A stretch of DNA of 64,000 nt from an uncultured bacterium (GTDB lineage: Bacteria > Bacillota_I > Bacilli_A > RFN20 > CAG-826). A program made the position numbers and the translations under genes. Below the pieces are notes generated by a model. The model made no database searches, was not told where the DNA came from, and worked only from the letters and a program-made list of their open reading frames with translations. Of this stretch, positions 10,104 to 46,534 are shown piece by piece. The stretch is taken from NCBI GenBank assembly GCA_949290395.1, contig CASERQ010000001.1, positions 62,001 to 126,000 of the forward strand, written 5' to 3'. The first letter of the stretch is position 1; every line of letters begins with the position of its first letter.

Positions 10104-10635
10104 AACTTTAATTGTTGTTGAAGGAAAAACCGATATAGACTTCTTATCAAGTTTTATTGATGCTGATTTTTATAGCGTTAATGGTTCTGCTGTTTCTCAA
10201 AAAGATATTAGTTTTATTAAAGAATATAAGAAAAAAGGCGAAGTTATTGTTTTAACTGATCCTGATTATCCTGGAACTAAAATTAGAAATTTTATAAACG
10301 AAAACATACCTGACTTAAAAAACGCCTATGTTAAAAAAGAACTTTCAATAAAAAGAAATAAGGTTGGCGTCGCTGAATCAACTATTGATGAAGTCAAAAG
10401 GGCGATAAACTCAGCTATCTCTTTTAAAATAGAAAAGTCTACTAATAACACCCTTAAAACCGAAGATTTATCTGAACTTGGTTTAGTTGGAAAAGAGAAC
10501 TCAAAAGAATTAAGAAACTTCGTCTCAGAAAAGTTTAATCTTGGCTATAATAATGGTAAGTCTTTGCTTAAAAAACTTAATATGTTAGGTATTGAAAAAA
10601 ACGAAATCAAAGAGGCTTTAAAAGATGTTAAATAA
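10090..10635 (+). CDS. rnmV: Ribonuclease M5 (5S rRNA maturation)
   Basis: 181-residue Toprim nuclease that trims 5S rRNA precursors in Firmicutes. Toprim residues are seen in LIVVEGKTDIDFL (catalytic Glu) and VIVLTDPDYPGTKIR (DxD). A C-terminal RNA-binding region follows (LGYNNGKSLLKKLNMLGI). It overlaps tatD upstream by 14 bases and rsmA downstream by 11, consistent with one operon. Confidence 0.95.
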   Translation: MNKFKTLIVVEGKTDIDFLSSFIDADFYSVNGSAVSQKDISFIKEYKKKGEVIVLTDPDYPGTKIRNFINENIPDLKNAYVKKELSIKRNKVGVAESTIDEVKRAINSAISFKIEKSTNNTLKTEDLSELGLVGKENSKELRNFVSEKFNLGYNNGKSLLKKLNMLGIEKNEIKEALKDVK

Positions 10636-11437
10636 AGAAGAAATTATAGATTACTTTAAATTAGTTAATTCTCATGCAAAAAAAGAATTGGGCCAAAACT
10701 TTCTTATTAATAAGGATATAGCAGAAAGTATAGTAAACGCCTTAGATATCAAAGAAAGTGATAAAGTTTTAGAGATTGGTCCAGGACTCGGAGCTTTAAC
10801 AGGTTTTGTTCTTGAAAAAACTTATGATACCTACAAAGTTGTTGAATACGATCAAAAGTTTGTTGAGTTTTTAACAAGAAGTTTTTCAGATAAAAAGATA
10901 GAAATCGTAAAGAATAATATTCTTAAAGAAAAAGATTTTTCTTTTAATAAAATTATTGGAAATTTACCTTATTATATTTCTAGTGAAATCATTTTAAAGG
11001 TTGCTTTAGAATATCCTCTTTTAGAAAAAGCAGTCTTTATGGTTCAAAAAGAATGCTACAAAAGAATCGTTGCAAAAAGTGGAAAAGATTATAATGCTTT
11101 AAACGTTTTGCTAGATTATTTATTTGTTATCAAGCAAGAGATAAATGTTGGAAGAGACAATTTTTTCCCAGCACCAAACGTTGACTCGCTAGTCTTTTCG
11201 CTGGCAAAAAAAGAAGAAATTAACATGAGTTTTGCAGGGTTTTTATATAAAATATCGAAAATTTGCTTTCAAAATAGAAGAAAAACTATCTACAATAATT
11301 TGCAATCTCTTGTTAAAAACAAAGAAGAATTAAGTTTAATTTTAAATAAAGCAAACCTTAAAGAAAAATTAAGAGCTGATGAGTTAACAACTTCTGATTT
11401 TATTAGATTGACTAGTGAAATTTATAAAAAAGATTAA
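10625..11437 (+). CDS. rsmA: 16S rRNA dimethyladenosine transferase
   Basis: KsgA/RsmA dimethylates two adjacent adenosines near the 3' end of 16S rRNA, a late small-subunit assembly step. The 270 residues hold the SAM-binding Rossmann motifs LGQNFLINK and LEIGPGLGALTG and the catalytic NLPYYISS. The sequence NMSFAGFL at 11227-11244 contains one of the window's GTTTTGC dispersed motifs. It ends the tatD-rnmV-rsmA overlap series; ispE follows after 30 bases. Confidence 0.96.
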   Translation: MLNKEEIIDYFKLVNSHAKKELGQNFLINKDIAESIVNALDIKESDKVLEIGPGLGALTGFVLEKTYDTYKVVEYDQKFVEFLTRSFSDKKIEIVKNNILKEKDFSFNKIIGNLPYYISSEIILKVALEYPLLEKAVFMVQKECYKRIVAKSGKDYNALNVLLDYLFVIKQEINVGRDNFFPAPNVDSLVFSLAKKEEINMSFAGFLYKISKICFQNRRKTIYNNLQSLVKNKEELSLILNKANLKEKLRADELTTSDFIRLTSEIYKKD

Positions 11438-11467
11438 TAATAAATAAAGATAAGTTAGGATGTTTAT

Positions 11468-12325
11468 ATGATTGAAAAAGCACACGCAAAAATTAATCTC
11501 TCATTAGATATTAAAAGCAAAAGAGATGATGGCTATCACAACTTAGAAACAATAATGCTTCCTTTAGAGATGCATGATACTTTAGAGGTCGAACTTTTAT
11601 CACCAGACGCAAAAGATGACTTCATTGTTTGTGATGATTTTACGCTTAAGATTACTAAATATAATTTAGTTCATAGAATAATTGATGAAGCTCGTAATTT
11701 ATGGGGATTTAAAGAACATTTTTTAATTAAAATTCATAAAAATATCTTTATTCAAGCCGGATTAGGTGGAGGAAGCGCAGACGCAGGGGCCGCTTTAAGA
11801 GCTATAATTAAACTCTTAAAAATCAACCCAACAAAAGAAGAACTTATCGAAATAGGAATTAATATTGGAAGTGACGTTCCTTGGGCGATATTTAATTCTC
11901 CTGCATTATTAAAAAGAAAAGGAGAAATTTTAGAATTTTTTGACCATGTCGCTCCATTTTATGTCTTACTTGTAAAGCCATTCGATGGTCTTTCTACTCA
12001 GGAAGTTTTTGGCGTTGCTGATAAATGCGAAAGCATTACTCATGGAGACATTGATTTAGTTAAAAAACTTTATGAAAATGATGATTTATCAGGATTAGGT
12101 GAACACGTATTTAATAGCCTTGAAAATCCTGCTATTGAGATTCTTCCTGAAATAAGTGCTGTTATTGAAAGTTTAAAAGATGATGGATTTGATTGCGTTA
12201 TGATGAGCGGATCTGGAAGTTGTGTTTTCGCGTTAACTATGGATAAGAAGCTTTGGAAAAAATGCGAGAAGAAATATACGCTAGAAAACTATCAAGTTTG
12301 TGCAACTAAGTTTTTGAGGAAATAA
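11468..12325 (+). CDS. ispE: 4-diphosphocytidyl-2-C-methyl-D-erythritol kinase
   Basis: GHMP kinase of the non-mevalonate (MEP) isoprenoid pathway. It phosphorylates the 2-hydroxyl of CDP-methylerythritol. The 285 residues show the start AHAKINLSLDI, a substrate motif DGYHNLETIM, the ATP loop GLGGGSADAGAA and the C-terminal MSGSGSCVFAL. Its presence implies the MEP pathway rather than mevalonate. Firmicutes carry ispE after rsmA. A separate AGGATG-type ribosome site precedes it. Confidence 0.95.
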   Translation: MIEKAHAKINLSLDIKSKRDDGYHNLETIMLPLEMHDTLEVELLSPDAKDDFIVCDDFTLKITKYNLVHRIIDEARNLWGFKEHFLIKIHKNIFIQAGLGGGSADAGAALRAIIKLLKINPTKEELIEIGINIGSDVPWAIFNSPALLKRKGEILEFFDHVAPFYVLLVKPFDGLSTQEVFGVADKCESITHGDIDLVKKLYENDDLSGLGEHVFNSLENPAIEILPEISAVIESLKDDGFDCVMMSGSGSCVFALTMDKKLWKKCEKKYTLENYQVCATKFLRK

Positions 12326-41055: not shown

Positions 41056-41073
41056 TGCTTTATAATTAAAGCA
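41056..41073 (+). promoter_or_regulatory. Promoter of the DUF1538-PII-MFS/GH2 operon, with palindrome
   Basis: TGCTTTA, TAAT, TAAAGCA is a perfect 7-bp inverted repeat that straddles the -10 box TATAAT (41061-41066) and ends on the A of the ATG at 41073. Six bases from -10 to ATG imply a leaderless message and an operator at the start site. Confidence 0.5.
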
Positions 41074-42611
41074 TGTTAAAGGAAGCAGCCTTAAAACTTA
41101 GAGAGGCTGCGATTAGTGTCGTACCAATCGCCCTCTTTGTTATAGTAATATTTGCTTTGCAATATTCTTTTGTAATGCCTTCCGACATGATTTCTGTTTC
41201 GACATTAATCACTTTTTTAATTTGTTTAATTTTTCTAGTGTTTGGAATGGCGACGTTTTCTTTAGGCGCTGAAATTTCCATGAGCAAAGTTGGTTCTTAT
41301 ATCGGCTCTAGTATAACTAAAAAACAATCAATAATTTTTATGATCGTTATTGCCTTTTTGTTAGGTGTTATGATTACTATAGCTGAGCCTGATTTAACGG
41401 TTTTAGGTGACCTACTTTCTGCTTCAATTAATCCGTGGGTTTTAAAGGTTTGCATTGGAGTAGGGGTTGGATTTTTTCTTGTTATTGGTTTATTAAGAAT
41501 TATTTTTCAAAAGAGTTTAAAACTTTGGATTATTTTCTTCTATTTTATAGTTTTTGCTTTAGCAGCGATGTTAGATGGAAAAAATGGAGAAGCTATTTTA
41601 TCTATTTCTTTTGATTCAGGTGGTGTAACAACTGGTCCTGTTACAGTTCCTTTTTTGTTAACTTTTGGTGCTGGCGTAGCCGCGGTTAGAGGTGGCAAAA
41701 ACTCATCTAGTGACTCTTTTGGTATTACTGGTTTATGTTCAATTGGACCTCTTATTACAACAATGACTTTACTTTTAATAATGAGTAATTTTGTTGATTT
41801 TTCAACTTTAAAAAATTCAATTGAAATTGATCAAGCAATTTTAGATGTTCTTTCTTCTTCTTGCTTAGATGTTTTATTAGCAATAGCTCCATTATTTATT
41901 TTCTTTTTAGTTTATGAGTTGATTTTTATTAAACTTTCAAAAAGAGAGTTACTTAAAATTATTTTAGGTTTTATCTATACATATATTGGACTTACAATAT
42001 TTTTAACAGCTGCGAATGCAGGTTTAATTCCAATCGGATTTGCTCTTGGAAATCATCTAGGAGACCCAATTCATGCTGGTGAATATAGTTATCTTTTAAT
42101 AATTATAGGTTTAGTTATCGGAATAGCTGTTGTTCTTGTTGAACCTGGTGTACATGTTCTTACTGAACAAGTTGAAGAAGTAAGCGGAGGAACAATTTCT
42201 AAAAAGAAAATGTTAATTACATTATGTATTGGCGTTGCTTTTGCAATTGTTTTAGAAGTTGTACGAGAAGTTTATGGTAATTTTTCAATTGTTTATTATT
42301 ACGCGCCACTTTATTTAATTTGTATTATTTTAGCTTTGATTGTTCCTGATATTTATGTTGCGATTGGATTTGACTCTGGTGGCGTAGCAAGTGGAACAAT
42401 GTCTTCTTGCTTTGTTTTGCCATTTATTATGGGAATAGCTTCAATCGCTGGAGATAATAGCGGATTCGGAGTAATTGGCTTAATTAGTGTTATGCCAGTA
42501 ATTTCTATTGAACTACTTGGTTTACAATCAGCAATCAGCATTAAAATTAGAACAAAAATTGTTTCGAAACATGTTCGTGAGACAAACGATGCCCAAATTA
42601 TTCATATGTAG
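41073..42611 (+). CDS. DUF1538-family multi-pass membrane protein
   Basis: 512 residues, about 12-14 hydrophobic segments, built as two related halves (PVTVPFLLTFGAGVAAVRGGKN in half 1 matches the GFDSGGVASGTMSSCFVLPFIMG region in half 2; both halves carry SFDSGGVTTGP- or GFDSGGVASG-type loops). This is the DUF1538 pattern, probably a transporter or channel of unknown substrate. No ribosome site: the promoter -10 ends six bases before ATG. Two PII-like proteins follow immediately, which suggests nucleotide-controlled transport by analogy with AmtB-GlnK. Confidence 0.85.
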   Translation: MLKEAALKLREAAISVVPIALFVIVIFALQYSFVMPSDMISVSTLITFLICLIFLVFGMATFSLGAEISMSKVGSYIGSSITKKQSIIFMIVIAFLLGVMITIAEPDLTVLGDLLSASINPWVLKVCIGVGVGFFLVIGLLRIIFQKSLKLWIIFFYFIVFALAAMLDGKNGEAILSISFDSGGVTTGPVTVPFLLTFGAGVAAVRGGKNSSSDSFGITGLCSIGPLITTMTLLLIMSNFVDFSTLKNSIEIDQAILDVLSSSCLDVLLAIAPLFIFFLVYELIFIKLSKRELLKIILGFIYTYIGLTIFLTAANAGLIPIGFALGNHLGDPIHAGEYSYLLIIIGLVIGIAVVLVEPGVHVLTEQVEEVSGGTISKKKMLITLCIGVAFAIVLEVVREVYGNFSIVYYYAPLYLICIILALIVPDIYVAIGFDSGGVASGTMSSCFVLPFIMGIASIAGDNSGFGVIGLISVMPVISIELLGLQSAISIKIRTKIVSKHVRETNDAQIIHM

Positions 42612-42620
42612 GTGAAAAAT

Positions 42621-43067
42621 ATGTTTTCAAAGTTAAAGAAAAAAAGAGTTGAATTAAAAGAAGGTTCGGAGCATTACGATAAGGATTTTGAGATTACTAA
42701 ACTTAAAATAATGTTCATCATTGTTGATCGTGGACAAGGCGACTATTTTATAAAAGAATTTGAAAAACAAGGCGTCGCCGCATCTTTTAAACTTTATGGA
42801 ACAGGTACTGCGACAAAAGATATTTATGAACTTTTAGGAATTGGTGAAACGAAGAAAGATATTGTTTTATCTGTTGTAAAAGTGAGTGACATAGAGAAAC
42901 TTAAAGAGATTGTACAAGAGAGGTTTGCAATCAACAAAAAATTTAAAGGAGTAAGTTTTTGCGCCGAAATTAATTCAGTTGCTGGCGTTTTAGTTTATAA
43001 ATATTTAGCTAATGTGAGAGAAAACAAAAGGAGGAACGATGATGGAAGAAAACAAAAAGAATTATGA
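42621..43067 (+). CDS. PII-superfamily signalling protein (first of two)
   Basis: 148 residues from ATG 42621, which has AGGTGA 6 bases upstream; a GTG at 42612 is also in frame. After a basic N-terminal stretch comes a PII-like ferredoxin fold: ITKLKIMFIIVDRGQGDYFIKEFEKQGV, then KLYGTGTATKDIYELLGIGETKKDIVLSVV and VSFCAEINSVAGV. PII proteins sense ATP/ADP and 2-oxoglutarate and gate transporters. The central T-loop is short and differs from GlnB, so this is a PII relative rather than a nitrogen regulator. It overlaps the next PII-like gene by 29 bases. Confidence 0.78.
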   Translation: MFSKLKKKRVELKEGSEHYDKDFEITKLKIMFIIVDRGQGDYFIKEFEKQGVAASFKLYGTGTATKDIYELLGIGETKKDIVLSVVKVSDIEKLKEIVQERFAINKKFKGVSFCAEINSVAGVLVYKYLANVRENKRRNDDGRKQKEL

Positions 43068-43413
43068 GTTAATCATCGTAATAGTTAATCAGGGATTTAC
43101 TGGAGCGGTCATGGATGCGGCGAAAGAATGTGGTGCAAGAGGCGGCACAACTTTTGTTGCTCATGGAACTGGAAATAAAGAATTAGGATCTTTCTTTGGA
43201 ATTGTTATTCAACCTGAAAAAGAGGTTGTTTTAATTCTTGTTGATGAAGAAATAAAAGATCAAGTAATGCTAAATATTTATAAAGCAGTTGGGCTTGATA
43301 CTAAAGGAAGTGGAATTGCTTTTTCAATCAAAGTAAGTGATGTAATTGGGTTAACTCCTTTTGAAAAGTTAATAAATAAAGAAGGCGATAATAATGAAAA
43401 CCATCAAGAATAA
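43039..43413 (+). CDS. PII-superfamily signalling protein (second of two)
   Basis: 124 residues. The PII likeness is clearer than in its neighbour: ELIIVIVNQGFTGAVMDAAKECGARGGTTFVAHGTG, then FFGIVIQPEKEVVLILVDEEIKDQVM and GSGIAFSIKVSDVIGL, which matches the C-terminal KIFVxxVxxVIRI end of GlnB. Start ATG 43039 or 43042; AGGAGG lies 4 or 7 bases upstream. It overlaps the first PII gene by 29 bases and the MFS-GH2 fusion by 20. The pair could form a hetero-trimer, which is speculation. Confidence 0.85.
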   Translation: MMEENKKNYELIIVIVNQGFTGAVMDAAKECGARGGTTFVAHGTGNKELGSFFGIVIQPEKEVVLILVDEEIKDQVMLNIYKAVGLDTKGSGIAFSIKVSDVIGLTPFEKLINKEGDNNENHQE

Positions 43414-46400
43414 CTCTAGCAAAATAGGTTGGAGAATGTGGTTAATCGTAATTTTGATTGGTCTAGCAGGTCAATTTGCATGGTCAATTGAAAATATGTA
43501 CTTAAACACATACATTGCTTATTTAAATTTTAACGCACCTGCAAATGAAAAATTTGATTACAATACTTTGATCGCTGTTACTACAGCTTTAAGTGCTATC
43601 ACTGCGACTTTAACCACCATCTTTATGGGTGGTTTAAGTGATAAACTTAGAAAAAGAAAAATATTTATTTCTCTCGGATATATTCTTTGGGGCGTAGCAA
43701 CTGCATCTTTTGGATTATTAAATGTTTATGGTGCTGTTGAAATAATTCCAATTTCAATGAGTGCAGTAACTGCAGCGATTATGGTTATTGTAATTGATTG
43801 CATAATGACTTTTTTTGGATCAACAGGAAATGATGCTGCTTTTAATTCTTATATAACTAAAAATATAAAAGATGAAAATAGAGGTAAAGTTGAAGGAGTA
43901 TTAGGAATTTTACCTCTAGTTGCGATGCTTATAATTTTTGTAGGACTCAATGGACTTACAACTGAAGCTAGCGGAAATAGATGGGACTTATTCTTTTATA
44001 TAGTTGGTGGAATCGTTCTTTTGGTTGGCGTTTTTTCAATTTTCTTATTACCAAAAGAAAAGAAAGAAGAAAAAGTTAAAGAAAAATATTTTTCTTTATT
44101 ACTTGAAGGATTCAAAGTAAAAACAATAAAAGAAAATAAACTTCTTTATATCGCTTTGATTGCTTACTTTATTTTCAATATTTCAGTACAAATTTATTTT
44201 CCATATTTGATGATTTATGTTGAAAGAACATGTGAAATTTCAAATGTTGGTGACTCTTTCATCACACCTTTTGCTATAGTTATGGCGGTCGCTTTGCTCG
44301 TTGGAAGTGTATTAAGCGTATTAATTGGCTTTAGAGCTGATAAAAAAGGAAAATTATCAATGTTAGTTCCAACTTTATTTATTACTGGAGTTGGACTCTT
44401 TATGATGTTTTTCTGTCCAATGGTGCCGGAAGGAGTTGGAAGAATAATTTATACTGCAATAAGTGGACTTATAATGATTTTAGGTTATGTAAGTTTCCCT
44501 GCAATTTTAAATTCCTTAATTAGAAGTTATATTCCTGAAGGGAAAGAAGGAATTTTCATGGGCATCAGAATGATATTTGTTGTTGCTCTTCCAATGTGTA
44601 TTGGCCCATTCATTGGTAGCGCATTAAATAATGCTTATGGTGAAATTTATTATGATCAATTTAATGTAGCCAATCCTCTTCCTTCAAATTATGGATATTT
44701 AGTTGGATTAATTGTTTTACTTTTAGTGTTAATTCCAATTTACTTTTTAATCAAGTATTCTAAAAAAACTCCGCAAAACAAAGGTTTTTTAGTAAAAGAT
44801 TTGTTGGAAAAGCAAAATAAAACATATGAAGAAAATGTAGAAAACTTTACTCTTTATCCTCGTCCAAATTTAGTTCGTGATTCATTTGTTAACTTGAATG
44901 GGGAATGGGATTTAAAGATTGTAAAGGAAGGAGACGTTGAAAAAGAATTTGATAAAAAAATAATCGTTCCGTATCCTTTAGAAGCTCCTTCTTCAAAAAT
45001 TAACCATCTTTTAGAAGTCGATGAAACTGCGGTTTATAAAAGAAGCTTCAATATTCAAAATCTATCTAAAGACAAAAAATATATTTTACATTTAGATGGC
45101 GTGGATCAAGTTTTTGAGCTTTATATTAATGGTGAATTTGTTGTTTCAGGTGATTCACCATACGCTAAAAATTCAATCGATATTACTGATTTTATTAAAG
45201 AAGAAAACGAAATTGTAGTTAAAGTAAGAGACTTTACAGACGCATCTTTTTACTCTAGAGGAAAACAAACTTTAAAACCATTTGGATGTTTTTATTCTTC
45301 AAGTAGTGGAATTTATAAAAATGTTTGGTTAGAAGAAGTTCCAAACGTATACATAAAAGATGTTAAGTTTAATATTTACTTTGATGAAAATGAAGTCGGT
45401 GTGTTAATTAAAACTAATAATGAAGTACAAGAAGAAGTTAATTTAACAATTGAAAACAAAATTTTTAAAGTTTTAACAAATAAGGAAAGAAGAATCAAAT
45501 TAGAAAATCCAAAATCTTGGAGCTATAAAGAACCCTATCTTTATGATGTTTCAATAAATTATAAAGAGGATAAAGTAAAAACGTATTTCGGCTTTAGAAA
45601 AATCGAAGTAAAAGAAGTTAATGGCAAAAATGCAATTTGTTTAAATAACAACGAAGTTATTTTAAATGGGCTTTTAGATCAAGGTTATTATTATCCAAAT
45701 TCTTTAACACCATCAAGTTATGAAGATTATAAAAAAGATATTCTTAATCTAAAAAATCTAGGTTTTAATACAATTAGAAAGCATATTAAAACTGAAATGG
45801 ATTATTTTTATTATCTTTGTGACAAACTTGGAATGCTTGTTATTCAAGATATACCATGCGGTGGTTATAAATATGAATTCTGGAATACCGCTTTTCCTCG
45901 TTTTAACATTAAGCTTTTTAATAAATTAAGTTTATTAAATGAAAAGAAACTTGGAAGAAAAGATGAAGAAAGTAAAAACAAATATAAAAAAGAACTAGTT
46001 CAAATTATTGATGAACTTTATAACTATCCTTCAATAATTTGCTACACATTATTTAATGAAGGATGGGGAGAATTTGATCCTGATAATATTTATGAACTAG
46101 CTAAAAAATGCGATAACTCTCGTATTTATGATTCAACAAGTGGTTGGTATATAGGAAACAAAAGAGATCTTTATTCAATTCACGCCTATATTTTCCAAGC
46201 AAGAAAAAGAAAGGATAAAGCTTTAAATAAACCTTACATTCTTTCTGAATGTGGTGGTGCTGGATTAAAAGTAAATGGCCATTCTTTGTTCCCTGGATTT
46301 TTCTCTCATTCTTTATCTTTGTCCACTAAGGGTTTAACAAAAAGATATAAAAAACTTTACACCAAACTTATTAAAGAAATAGAAGCTGGAAGATTGAAAG

Positions 46401-46534
46401 GCATTATTTATACTGAACTTTCAGATTGTGAAACAGAATATAATGGAATTTACACTTTTGATAGAGAAGTGTTGAAAATTGACGAAAAAACTATCAAAGA
46501 TTTAAATGAAAAGATAGAAAAGTTTAATAATTAA
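43394..46534 (+). CDS. MFS sugar transporter fused to GH2-family glycosidase
   Basis: 1046 residues in one open frame. Residues ~13-455 are a 12-helix MFS transporter related to sugar/cation symporters (MGGLSDKLRKRK between helices 2 and 3; FRADKKGKL in the second half). After a ~30-residue charged linker, residues ~485-1040 are a glycoside hydrolase family 2 protein: jelly-roll start (YPRPNLVRDSFVNLNGEWDL), Ig-like domain, then TIM barrel with acid/base Glu889 in LFNEGWGE and nucleophile Glu952 in ILSECGGAG. A beta-glucuronidase or beta-galactosidase-type activity is likely. With 12 helices the C-terminus faces the cytoplasm, so import and hydrolysis would occur on one polypeptide. Last gene of the operon; ends one base before convergent rsmI. 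Confidence 0.9.
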   Translation: MKTIKNNSSKIGWRMWLIVILIGLAGQFAWSIENMYLNTYIAYLNFNAPANEKFDYNTLIAVTTALSAITATLTTIFMGGLSDKLRKRKIFISLGYILWGVATASFGLLNVYGAVEIIPISMSAVTAAIMVIVIDCIMTFFGSTGNDAAFNSYITKNIKDENRGKVEGVLGILPLVAMLIIFVGLNGLTTEASGNRWDLFFYIVGGIVLLVGVFSIFLLPKEKKEEKVKEKYFSLLLEGFKVKTIKENKLLYIALIAYFIFNISVQIYFPYLMIYVERTCEISNVGDSFITPFAIVMAVALLVGSVLSVLIGFRADKKGKLSMLVPTLFITGVGLFMMFFCPMVPEGVGRIIYTAISGLIMILGYVSFPAILNSLIRSYIPEGKEGIFMGIRMIFVVALPMCIGPFIGSALNNAYGEIYYDQFNVANPLPSNYGYLVGLIVLLLVLIPIYFLIKYSKKTPQNKGFLVKDLLEKQNKTYEENVENFTLYPRPNLVRDSFVNLNGEWDLKIVKEGDVEKEFDKKIIVPYPLEAPSSKINHLLEVDETAVYKRSFNIQNLSKDKKYILHLDGVDQVFELYINGEFVVSGDSPYAKNSIDITDFIKEENEIVVKVRDFTDASFYSRGKQTLKPFGCFYSSSSGIYKNVWLEEVPNVYIKDVKFNIYFDENEVGVLIKTNNEVQEEVNLTIENKIFKVLTNKERRIKLENPKSWSYKEPYLYDVSINYKEDKVKTYFGFRKIEVKEVNGKNAICLNNNEVILNGLLDQGYYYPNSLTPSSYEDYKKDILNLKNLGFNTIRKHIKTEMDYFYYLCDKLGMLVIQDIPCGGYKYEFWNTAFPRFNIKLFNKLSLLNEKKLGRKDEESKNKYKKELVQIIDELYNYPSIICYTLFNEGWGEFDPDNIYELAKKCDNSRIYDSTSGWYIGNKRDLYSIHAYIFQARKRKDKALNKPYILSECGGAGLKVNGHSLFPGFFSHSLSLSTKGLTKRYKKLYTKLIKEIEAGRLKGIIYTELSDCETEYNGIYTFDREVLKIDEKTIKDLNEKIEKFNN

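Follow-up and report, generated by a model that had tools for sequence, protein, structure and literature searches.

The hand-over of a substrate from a transporter to the enzyme that consumes it is usually argued from co-expression and from engineered fusions. In the window, a stretch of 64,000 nucleotides from an uncultured bacterium, one uninterrupted frame raises the question of whether an MFS transporter and a GH2 glycosidase have been joined in nature, and, if so, on which side of the membrane the enzyme sits, what it cleaves and whether the cell gains anything from the union.

Architecture and distribution of the fused gene

The fused gene (43394-46534, + strand) runs from an ATG start to a TAA stop over 1046 codons with no internal stop, and its open frame, Pfam matches and AlphaFold2 model place an MFS carrier and a complete GH2 hydrolase in a single polypeptide of 1046 amino acids. 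The carrier occupies residues 1-456 (43394-44761, +), as judged from the Pfam family MFS_1 (PF07690; residues 50-405, E 2.9e-28, above cut-off), hydropathy, the positive-inside pattern, the AlphaFold2 helices and conservation. A linker, predicted to be cytoplasmic, spans residues 457-487 (44762-44854, +); it lacks a usable internal start and has low pLDDT at residues 458-463. Pfam and structure matches then identify residues 488-1046 (44855-46531, +) as a GH2 glycoside hydrolase, assigned below to group III. Its three-domain core, recovered by Pfam, AlphaFold2 and fold search, follows the canonical order: an N-terminal sugar-binding jelly-roll domain at residues 536-650 (PF02837, E 1.7e-15; 44999-45343, +), an Ig-like domain at residues 665-735 (PF00703; 45386-45598, +) and a TIM-barrel region at residues 773-1046 (PF02836 over residues 773-959, and AlphaFold2; 45710-46531, +). 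The AlphaFold2 model, built from a 28-sequence alignment, has a mean pLDDT of 83.5 and shows twelve transmembrane helices followed by the GH2 fold; at a pTM of only 0.63, it is no reliable guide to how the two halves lie relative to each other.

The catalytic pair named in the initial annotation has been confirmed in position. Glu889, the putative acid/base of the NE motif (codon 46058-46060, +), lies within FNEGWG, and Glu952, the putative nucleophile (codon 46247-46249, +), lies within LSECGG; these motifs align with NEGWG and LGEFGG of the solved β-D-galactofuranosidase 9J6N. Within the family, both Glu889 and Asn888 are conserved in 61/61 sequences and Glu952 in all 60 that are ungapped at that position.

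The survey for the same architecture covered relatives, the order, a class sample and a phylum sample, together with a scan of named genomes, which confirmed the Bacilli bins and yielded one more, labelled Lachnospiraceae. Altogether, a stop-free fusion was found in 25 genomes; the survey's group codes place them in five or more families, not counting the Lachnospiraceae-labelled bin. Sixteen belong to the window's genus, four to family f5 (one of which, RUG11704, has an incomplete MFS 5' end), one to f2, two to f25 and one to f23, making 24 with the window's own genome. The gene in the Lachnospiraceae-labelled bin (L041, 5992-9213) is a full MFS-GH2 fusion with about 31% identity, for which class-to-class transfer or misbinning is possible. 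No viral relative was confirmed, and plasmid records held the GH2 half only, with no fused record. Both halves are still intact in fused genes as divergent as about 40% identity. Among close fused pairs, dN/dS is 0.04-0.12 for the MFS half and 0.06-0.12 for the GH2 half, indicating purifying selection on both; wider pairs, which are nearer synonymous saturation, reach about 0.26. The same selection analysis shows the linker to be less constrained, and only weakly so.

Since stop-free, full-length fusions occur in many other genomes, the joined frame cannot be put down to chance or to a slip in sequencing at 44750-44900, and a chance ORF is ruled out by the domain matches and selection. A missed indel joining two genes in error can be dismissed for the family: the sequences come mostly from draft or metagenome assemblies and the fused and split states differ by about a single-base change, but the fusion recurs in independent assemblies of 25 genomes, the fused state is clustered on the tree (0/500 shuffles as low) and the GH2 start codons and ribosome sites are gone from the fused genes. 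The covalent union proposed in the initial annotation is thus borne out by the open frame, Pfam, AlphaFold2 and the same fusion elsewhere, and relatives, which would have counted against it had they always kept transporter and hydrolase as separate genes, do not always do so.

Membrane topology and probable substrate

Membership of the MFS is indicated by twelve helices, both ends in the cytoplasm, the MFS fold and structure matches at Z 31-34. Hydropathy averaged over about 60 family members gives twelve hydrophobic peaks, and on family average the cytoplasmic loops carry about 2.8-4.1 K/R against 0.5-1.3 in the outer loops. Because this positive-inside pattern puts both MFS ends in the cytoplasm, the hydrolase very probably faces the cytoplasm as well (N-in/C-in), as had been argued earlier from the even number of helices alone. 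A hydrolase outside the cell was rejected on the twelve helices and the same charge pattern.

In the carrier itself, a helix 1 motif around Q27, W30, E33, N34 and N38, plus D135, is invariant or near-invariant across the family. It has no close solved relative among the structures searched. The NCBIfam search gave no match for the MFS half, and the PDB sequence matches were weak (YajR, an anhydromuropeptide permease). The top structure matches, including OxlT, VMAT, NorA and SotB, are tied, which reflects the common fold only and does not allow a substrate to be named from structure. We therefore infer the substrate and direction of the carrier from its partner enzyme and not from its own sequence or fold. 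Direction is not given by the MFS fold alone and drug exporters are among the best structural matches, so that the MFS half might be a sensor or exporter, with the fused hydrolase serving a regulatory role or acting on an internal glycoside; this is nevertheless very improbable, as a carrier that is fused to a cytoplasmic catabolic glycosidase, or shares an operon with one and with genes of the galactose pathway, fits uptake.

Turning to the hydrolase, the best GH2 structure matches, in sequence as well as in fold, were 7SF2 (Z 42.5), 9J6N/9J6M (Z 41.8) and 7XYR (Z 38.6), with the next GH2 listed at 31.8; there is a clear drop from these to glucuronidases and galacturonidases. Structure 9J6M belongs to GH2_18 and 7XYR to GH2_19, which together make up group III, the furanosidase group (PMC12243196). 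Members of this group are marked by a Thr at the -1 subsite position that is otherwise a Trp (PMC12243196). The corresponding residue here would be Thr1007 (codon 46412-46414, +), which is Thr in all 59 ungapped sequences, and whose match to the Trp position of other GH2 groups depends on how it aligns to the 9J6N motif YTE. Taken together, fold and marker residue indicate that the hydrolase half is probably a furanosidase of GH2 group III. In NCBIfam, the best scores were 112-115 bits, and every glycosidase family listed fell below its cut-off (544 to 2000). With no whole-protein score over a curated cut-off, a β-glucuronidase, a LacZ-type galactosidase and a mannosidase were set aside. The pyranosidase- and glucuronidase-type substrates proposed for assay in the initial annotation accordingly lost ground to the furanosides of GH2_18/19, and gene context points to galactofuranosides among them.

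That context comes from relatives. Of 70 genomes, 21 (about 0.6 expected) have a galactokinase-like gene no more than 5 kb from GH2, although these 21 come from four genera in two families, are not independent, and carry split versions of the pair rather than the window's gene. The galactokinase-like neighbours bear a galactose-binding signature, and some of the loci also encode an aldose-1-epimerase. They form a divergent family (L179 2910-4046, L198 3822-4982 and similar genes beside split pairs) that scores 145-165 bits against the TIGR00131 cut-off of 226.65. About 2.5 kb past the split pair of L198, a UDP-galactopyranose mutase gene (10559-11686) suggests that this organism may also make galactofuranose. 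L-arabinose isomerase (AraA) was absent from all ten genomes searched, on which ground arabinose catabolism was rejected, and galT is present in the window's genome.

On the strength of the group III assignment, the galactokinase and mutarotase neighbours and the missing AraA, a β-D-galactofuranoside would be the likeliest substrate and galactose the product, a reading in which we have moderate confidence. The same architecture might instead serve an α-L-arabinofuranosidase or act on another glycoside, pyranosides included. Group III also includes α-L-arabinofuranosidases (PMC12243196), the closest solved relative, 7SF2, is labelled a β-galactosidase, and the operon of the window's gene has no sugar-specific neighbour. 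Weighed against these are the absence of AraA from ten genomes while galT is present, the galactokinase and mutarotase neighbours in relatives, and the replacement of the -1 Trp by Thr, which leave another substrate rather unlikely.

The junction and its evolutionary history

Relatives with separate genes bear out the earlier remark that MFS and GH2 genes are common neighbours and offer an indication of how the fusion arose. The two genes of an adjacent split pair overlap by 4-26 nt, GH2 starting before the MFS gene has ended, and GH2 is read in frame +1 in 30 of the 31 pairs. Among these pairs (L161-L199), the thirty +1-frame overlaps span 8-26 nt across families and vary by multiples of three; the remaining overlap is 4 nt. 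With the GH2 frame at +1, a net one-base deletion (or two-base insertion) is enough to join the frames, and from nucleotide alignments the fusion event appears to have been such a change within the overlap. In keeping with this, the fused linker consists of the MFS tail and the old GH2 N-terminus (NKGFL...YPRP in the window's protein; NKGYL...EYPRP for the fused proteins).

The signals for separate translation of the hydrolase differ sharply between the two forms. An in-frame start preceded by anti-SD pairing at least as good as -5 kcal/mol is present in 23 of the 31 split genes but in none of the 24 fused ones, ten of which lack every type of start codon over the stretch examined. A free hydrolase made from an internal start of a fused gene was considered and rejected, as there was no candidate with good ribosome-site pairing. 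Because the fused genes lack the internal Shine-Dalgarno sequence and start of the split GH2 genes, their hydrolase is probably made only in membrane-tethered form. Where MFS and GH2 are split (for example in G009, G015, L039 and L040), the proteins are orthologous to the fused halves; the split operon yields two polypeptides, with the GH2 ribosome site and start inside the MFS 3' end, whereas the fused gene yields one.

Fused and split versions also meet at one locus. Upstream of the window's gene, 41073-43413 holds three genes that overlap or abut one another and the fused gene: the first encodes a DUF1538 membrane protein, and of the two small genes after it one is P-II-like (PF00543) and the other has no Pfam match. 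This block is conserved beside MFS-GH2 in eight genomes. The P-II-like gene (43039-43413, +), a conserved neighbour, shares 20 nt with the start of the fused gene, and the 3' end of the fused gene adjoins a convergent gene that we take to be rsmI. At this syntenic locus (DUF1538, P-II genes, rsmI), the genes are fused in the window's genome and in G001, G013 and G025, and split in the sister species G009 and G015. In a further genome, G012 (L164 2991-5100), the MFS gene is lost from the locus and GH2 starts inside the P-II-like gene, leaving the hydrolase free of the carrier.

The number of changes between the fused and split states is eight on the GH2 tree, eight on the MFS tree and seven on the concatenated tree, in which well-supported branches require every one of the seven. 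The AU test rejects a tree with all fused genes in one clade (p 4.7e-18), which makes the fused state polyphyletic and rules out one ancient fusion. Judged from these trees, fusion (or fission) is a recurrent event, for which parsimony counts do not separate gains from losses. Since distant split pairs share the +1 overlap, the split operon would be the likelier ancestor.

Tethering, precedents and significance

The model as a whole, a single-chain galactofuranoside importer and hydrolase produced by recurrent fusion of overlapping genes, is favoured on balance. The twelve-helix MFS half would import a small β-D-galactofuranoside, such as a Galf-containing disaccharide or Galf-glycerol, by cation symport. 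At the cytoplasmic face, beyond the linker of about 30 residues, the C-terminal GH2 half would carry out a retaining cleavage in which E889 acts as acid/base and E952 as nucleophile, a step for which fold, residues and cytoplasmic side were computed and the substrate deduced. As the neighbours in relatives suggest, the freed D-galactose would undergo mutarotation and then enter the Leloir pathway through one of the divergent galactokinases. The gene itself probably arose from an ancestral two-gene operon with an overlapping +1 GH2 start, in which repeated indels fused the frames. With the start signal for a free hydrolase gone, the capacities for import and hydrolysis would be locked at 1:1 and the enzyme fixed at the membrane. 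Import followed by cleavage in the same molecule, suggested from the outset, is supported as the likely job of this protein.

Whether tethering brings anything further is a separate matter. The fusion may simply be a tolerated one-indel mutation, the hydrolase acting as if free in the cytosol with no gain from its tether, and we regard this as a strong contender at a probability somewhat below even. The out-of-frame overlap makes fusion easy; fusion recurs while split sisters persist at the same locus; the linker sequence varies freely; and G012 has dropped the MFS gene and keeps a free GH2 at the locus. On the other hand, both halves remain intact under purifying selection through deep divergence (about 40% identity), and an internal start is retained in no fused gene. 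A measurable coupling benefit of tethering is put forward tentatively. Slightly more doubtful is a natural single-chain transport metabolon for galactofuranosides, in which selection would have repeatedly fixed the importer-glycosidase union and vectorial uptake with cleavage would stop back-leak of the glycoside. Substrate channelling is a possibility only, as no sequence result can establish a channel.

The nearest precedent, and the closest analogue in its way of working, is LplT-Aas, which likewise pairs an MFS transporter with a cytoplasmic enzyme that uses its cargo, encoded as a two-gene operon or apparently as one ORF. E. coli has two separate proteins and other bacteria apparently a fused one, and a functional complex of the separate proteins has been demonstrated (PMC11416262). 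The natural fused forms are described there as uncharacterised, and attaching a partner artificially to the C terminus of LplT disrupted its expression (PMC11416262). Unlike the present protein with its GH2 glycosidase, LplT-Aas has a lipid cargo, its MFS half being a flippase, and its enzyme is an acyltransferase; the enzyme parts are not homologous. The GH2 half resembles ORF1110 of Streptomyces sp. JHA19 (GH2_18; 9J6M/9J6N) in fold, catalytic motifs and the Thr marker (Z 41.8, rmsd 2.4, 29% identity over 544 residues), and its closest solved structure is 7SF2, a GH2 protein of Bacteroides cellulosilyticus (domain E 9e-78, Z 42.5), but both were solved as chains without an MFS domain. Members of GH2_18 are mostly secreted and those of GH2_19 mostly lack secretion signals (PMC12243196). 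No description of a natural MFS-glycosidase fusion was found in the open literature searched, where an unseen paper or database architecture is possible. Each component is known; the novelty would lie in how they are combined, in the recurrence of that union and in the disappearance of a start for the free enzyme.

Orthologous fused and split versions that occupy the same locus in sister species, about one base apart, provide natural pairs with which the benefit of tethering could be tested. The analysis also shifts the probable substrate away from the common pyranosides and towards furanosides. For the host, a gut or rumen bacterium in which importer and inner-side enzyme are one protein, the gene would represent a likely route for the use of galactofuranose by small-genome gut and rumen Bacilli.
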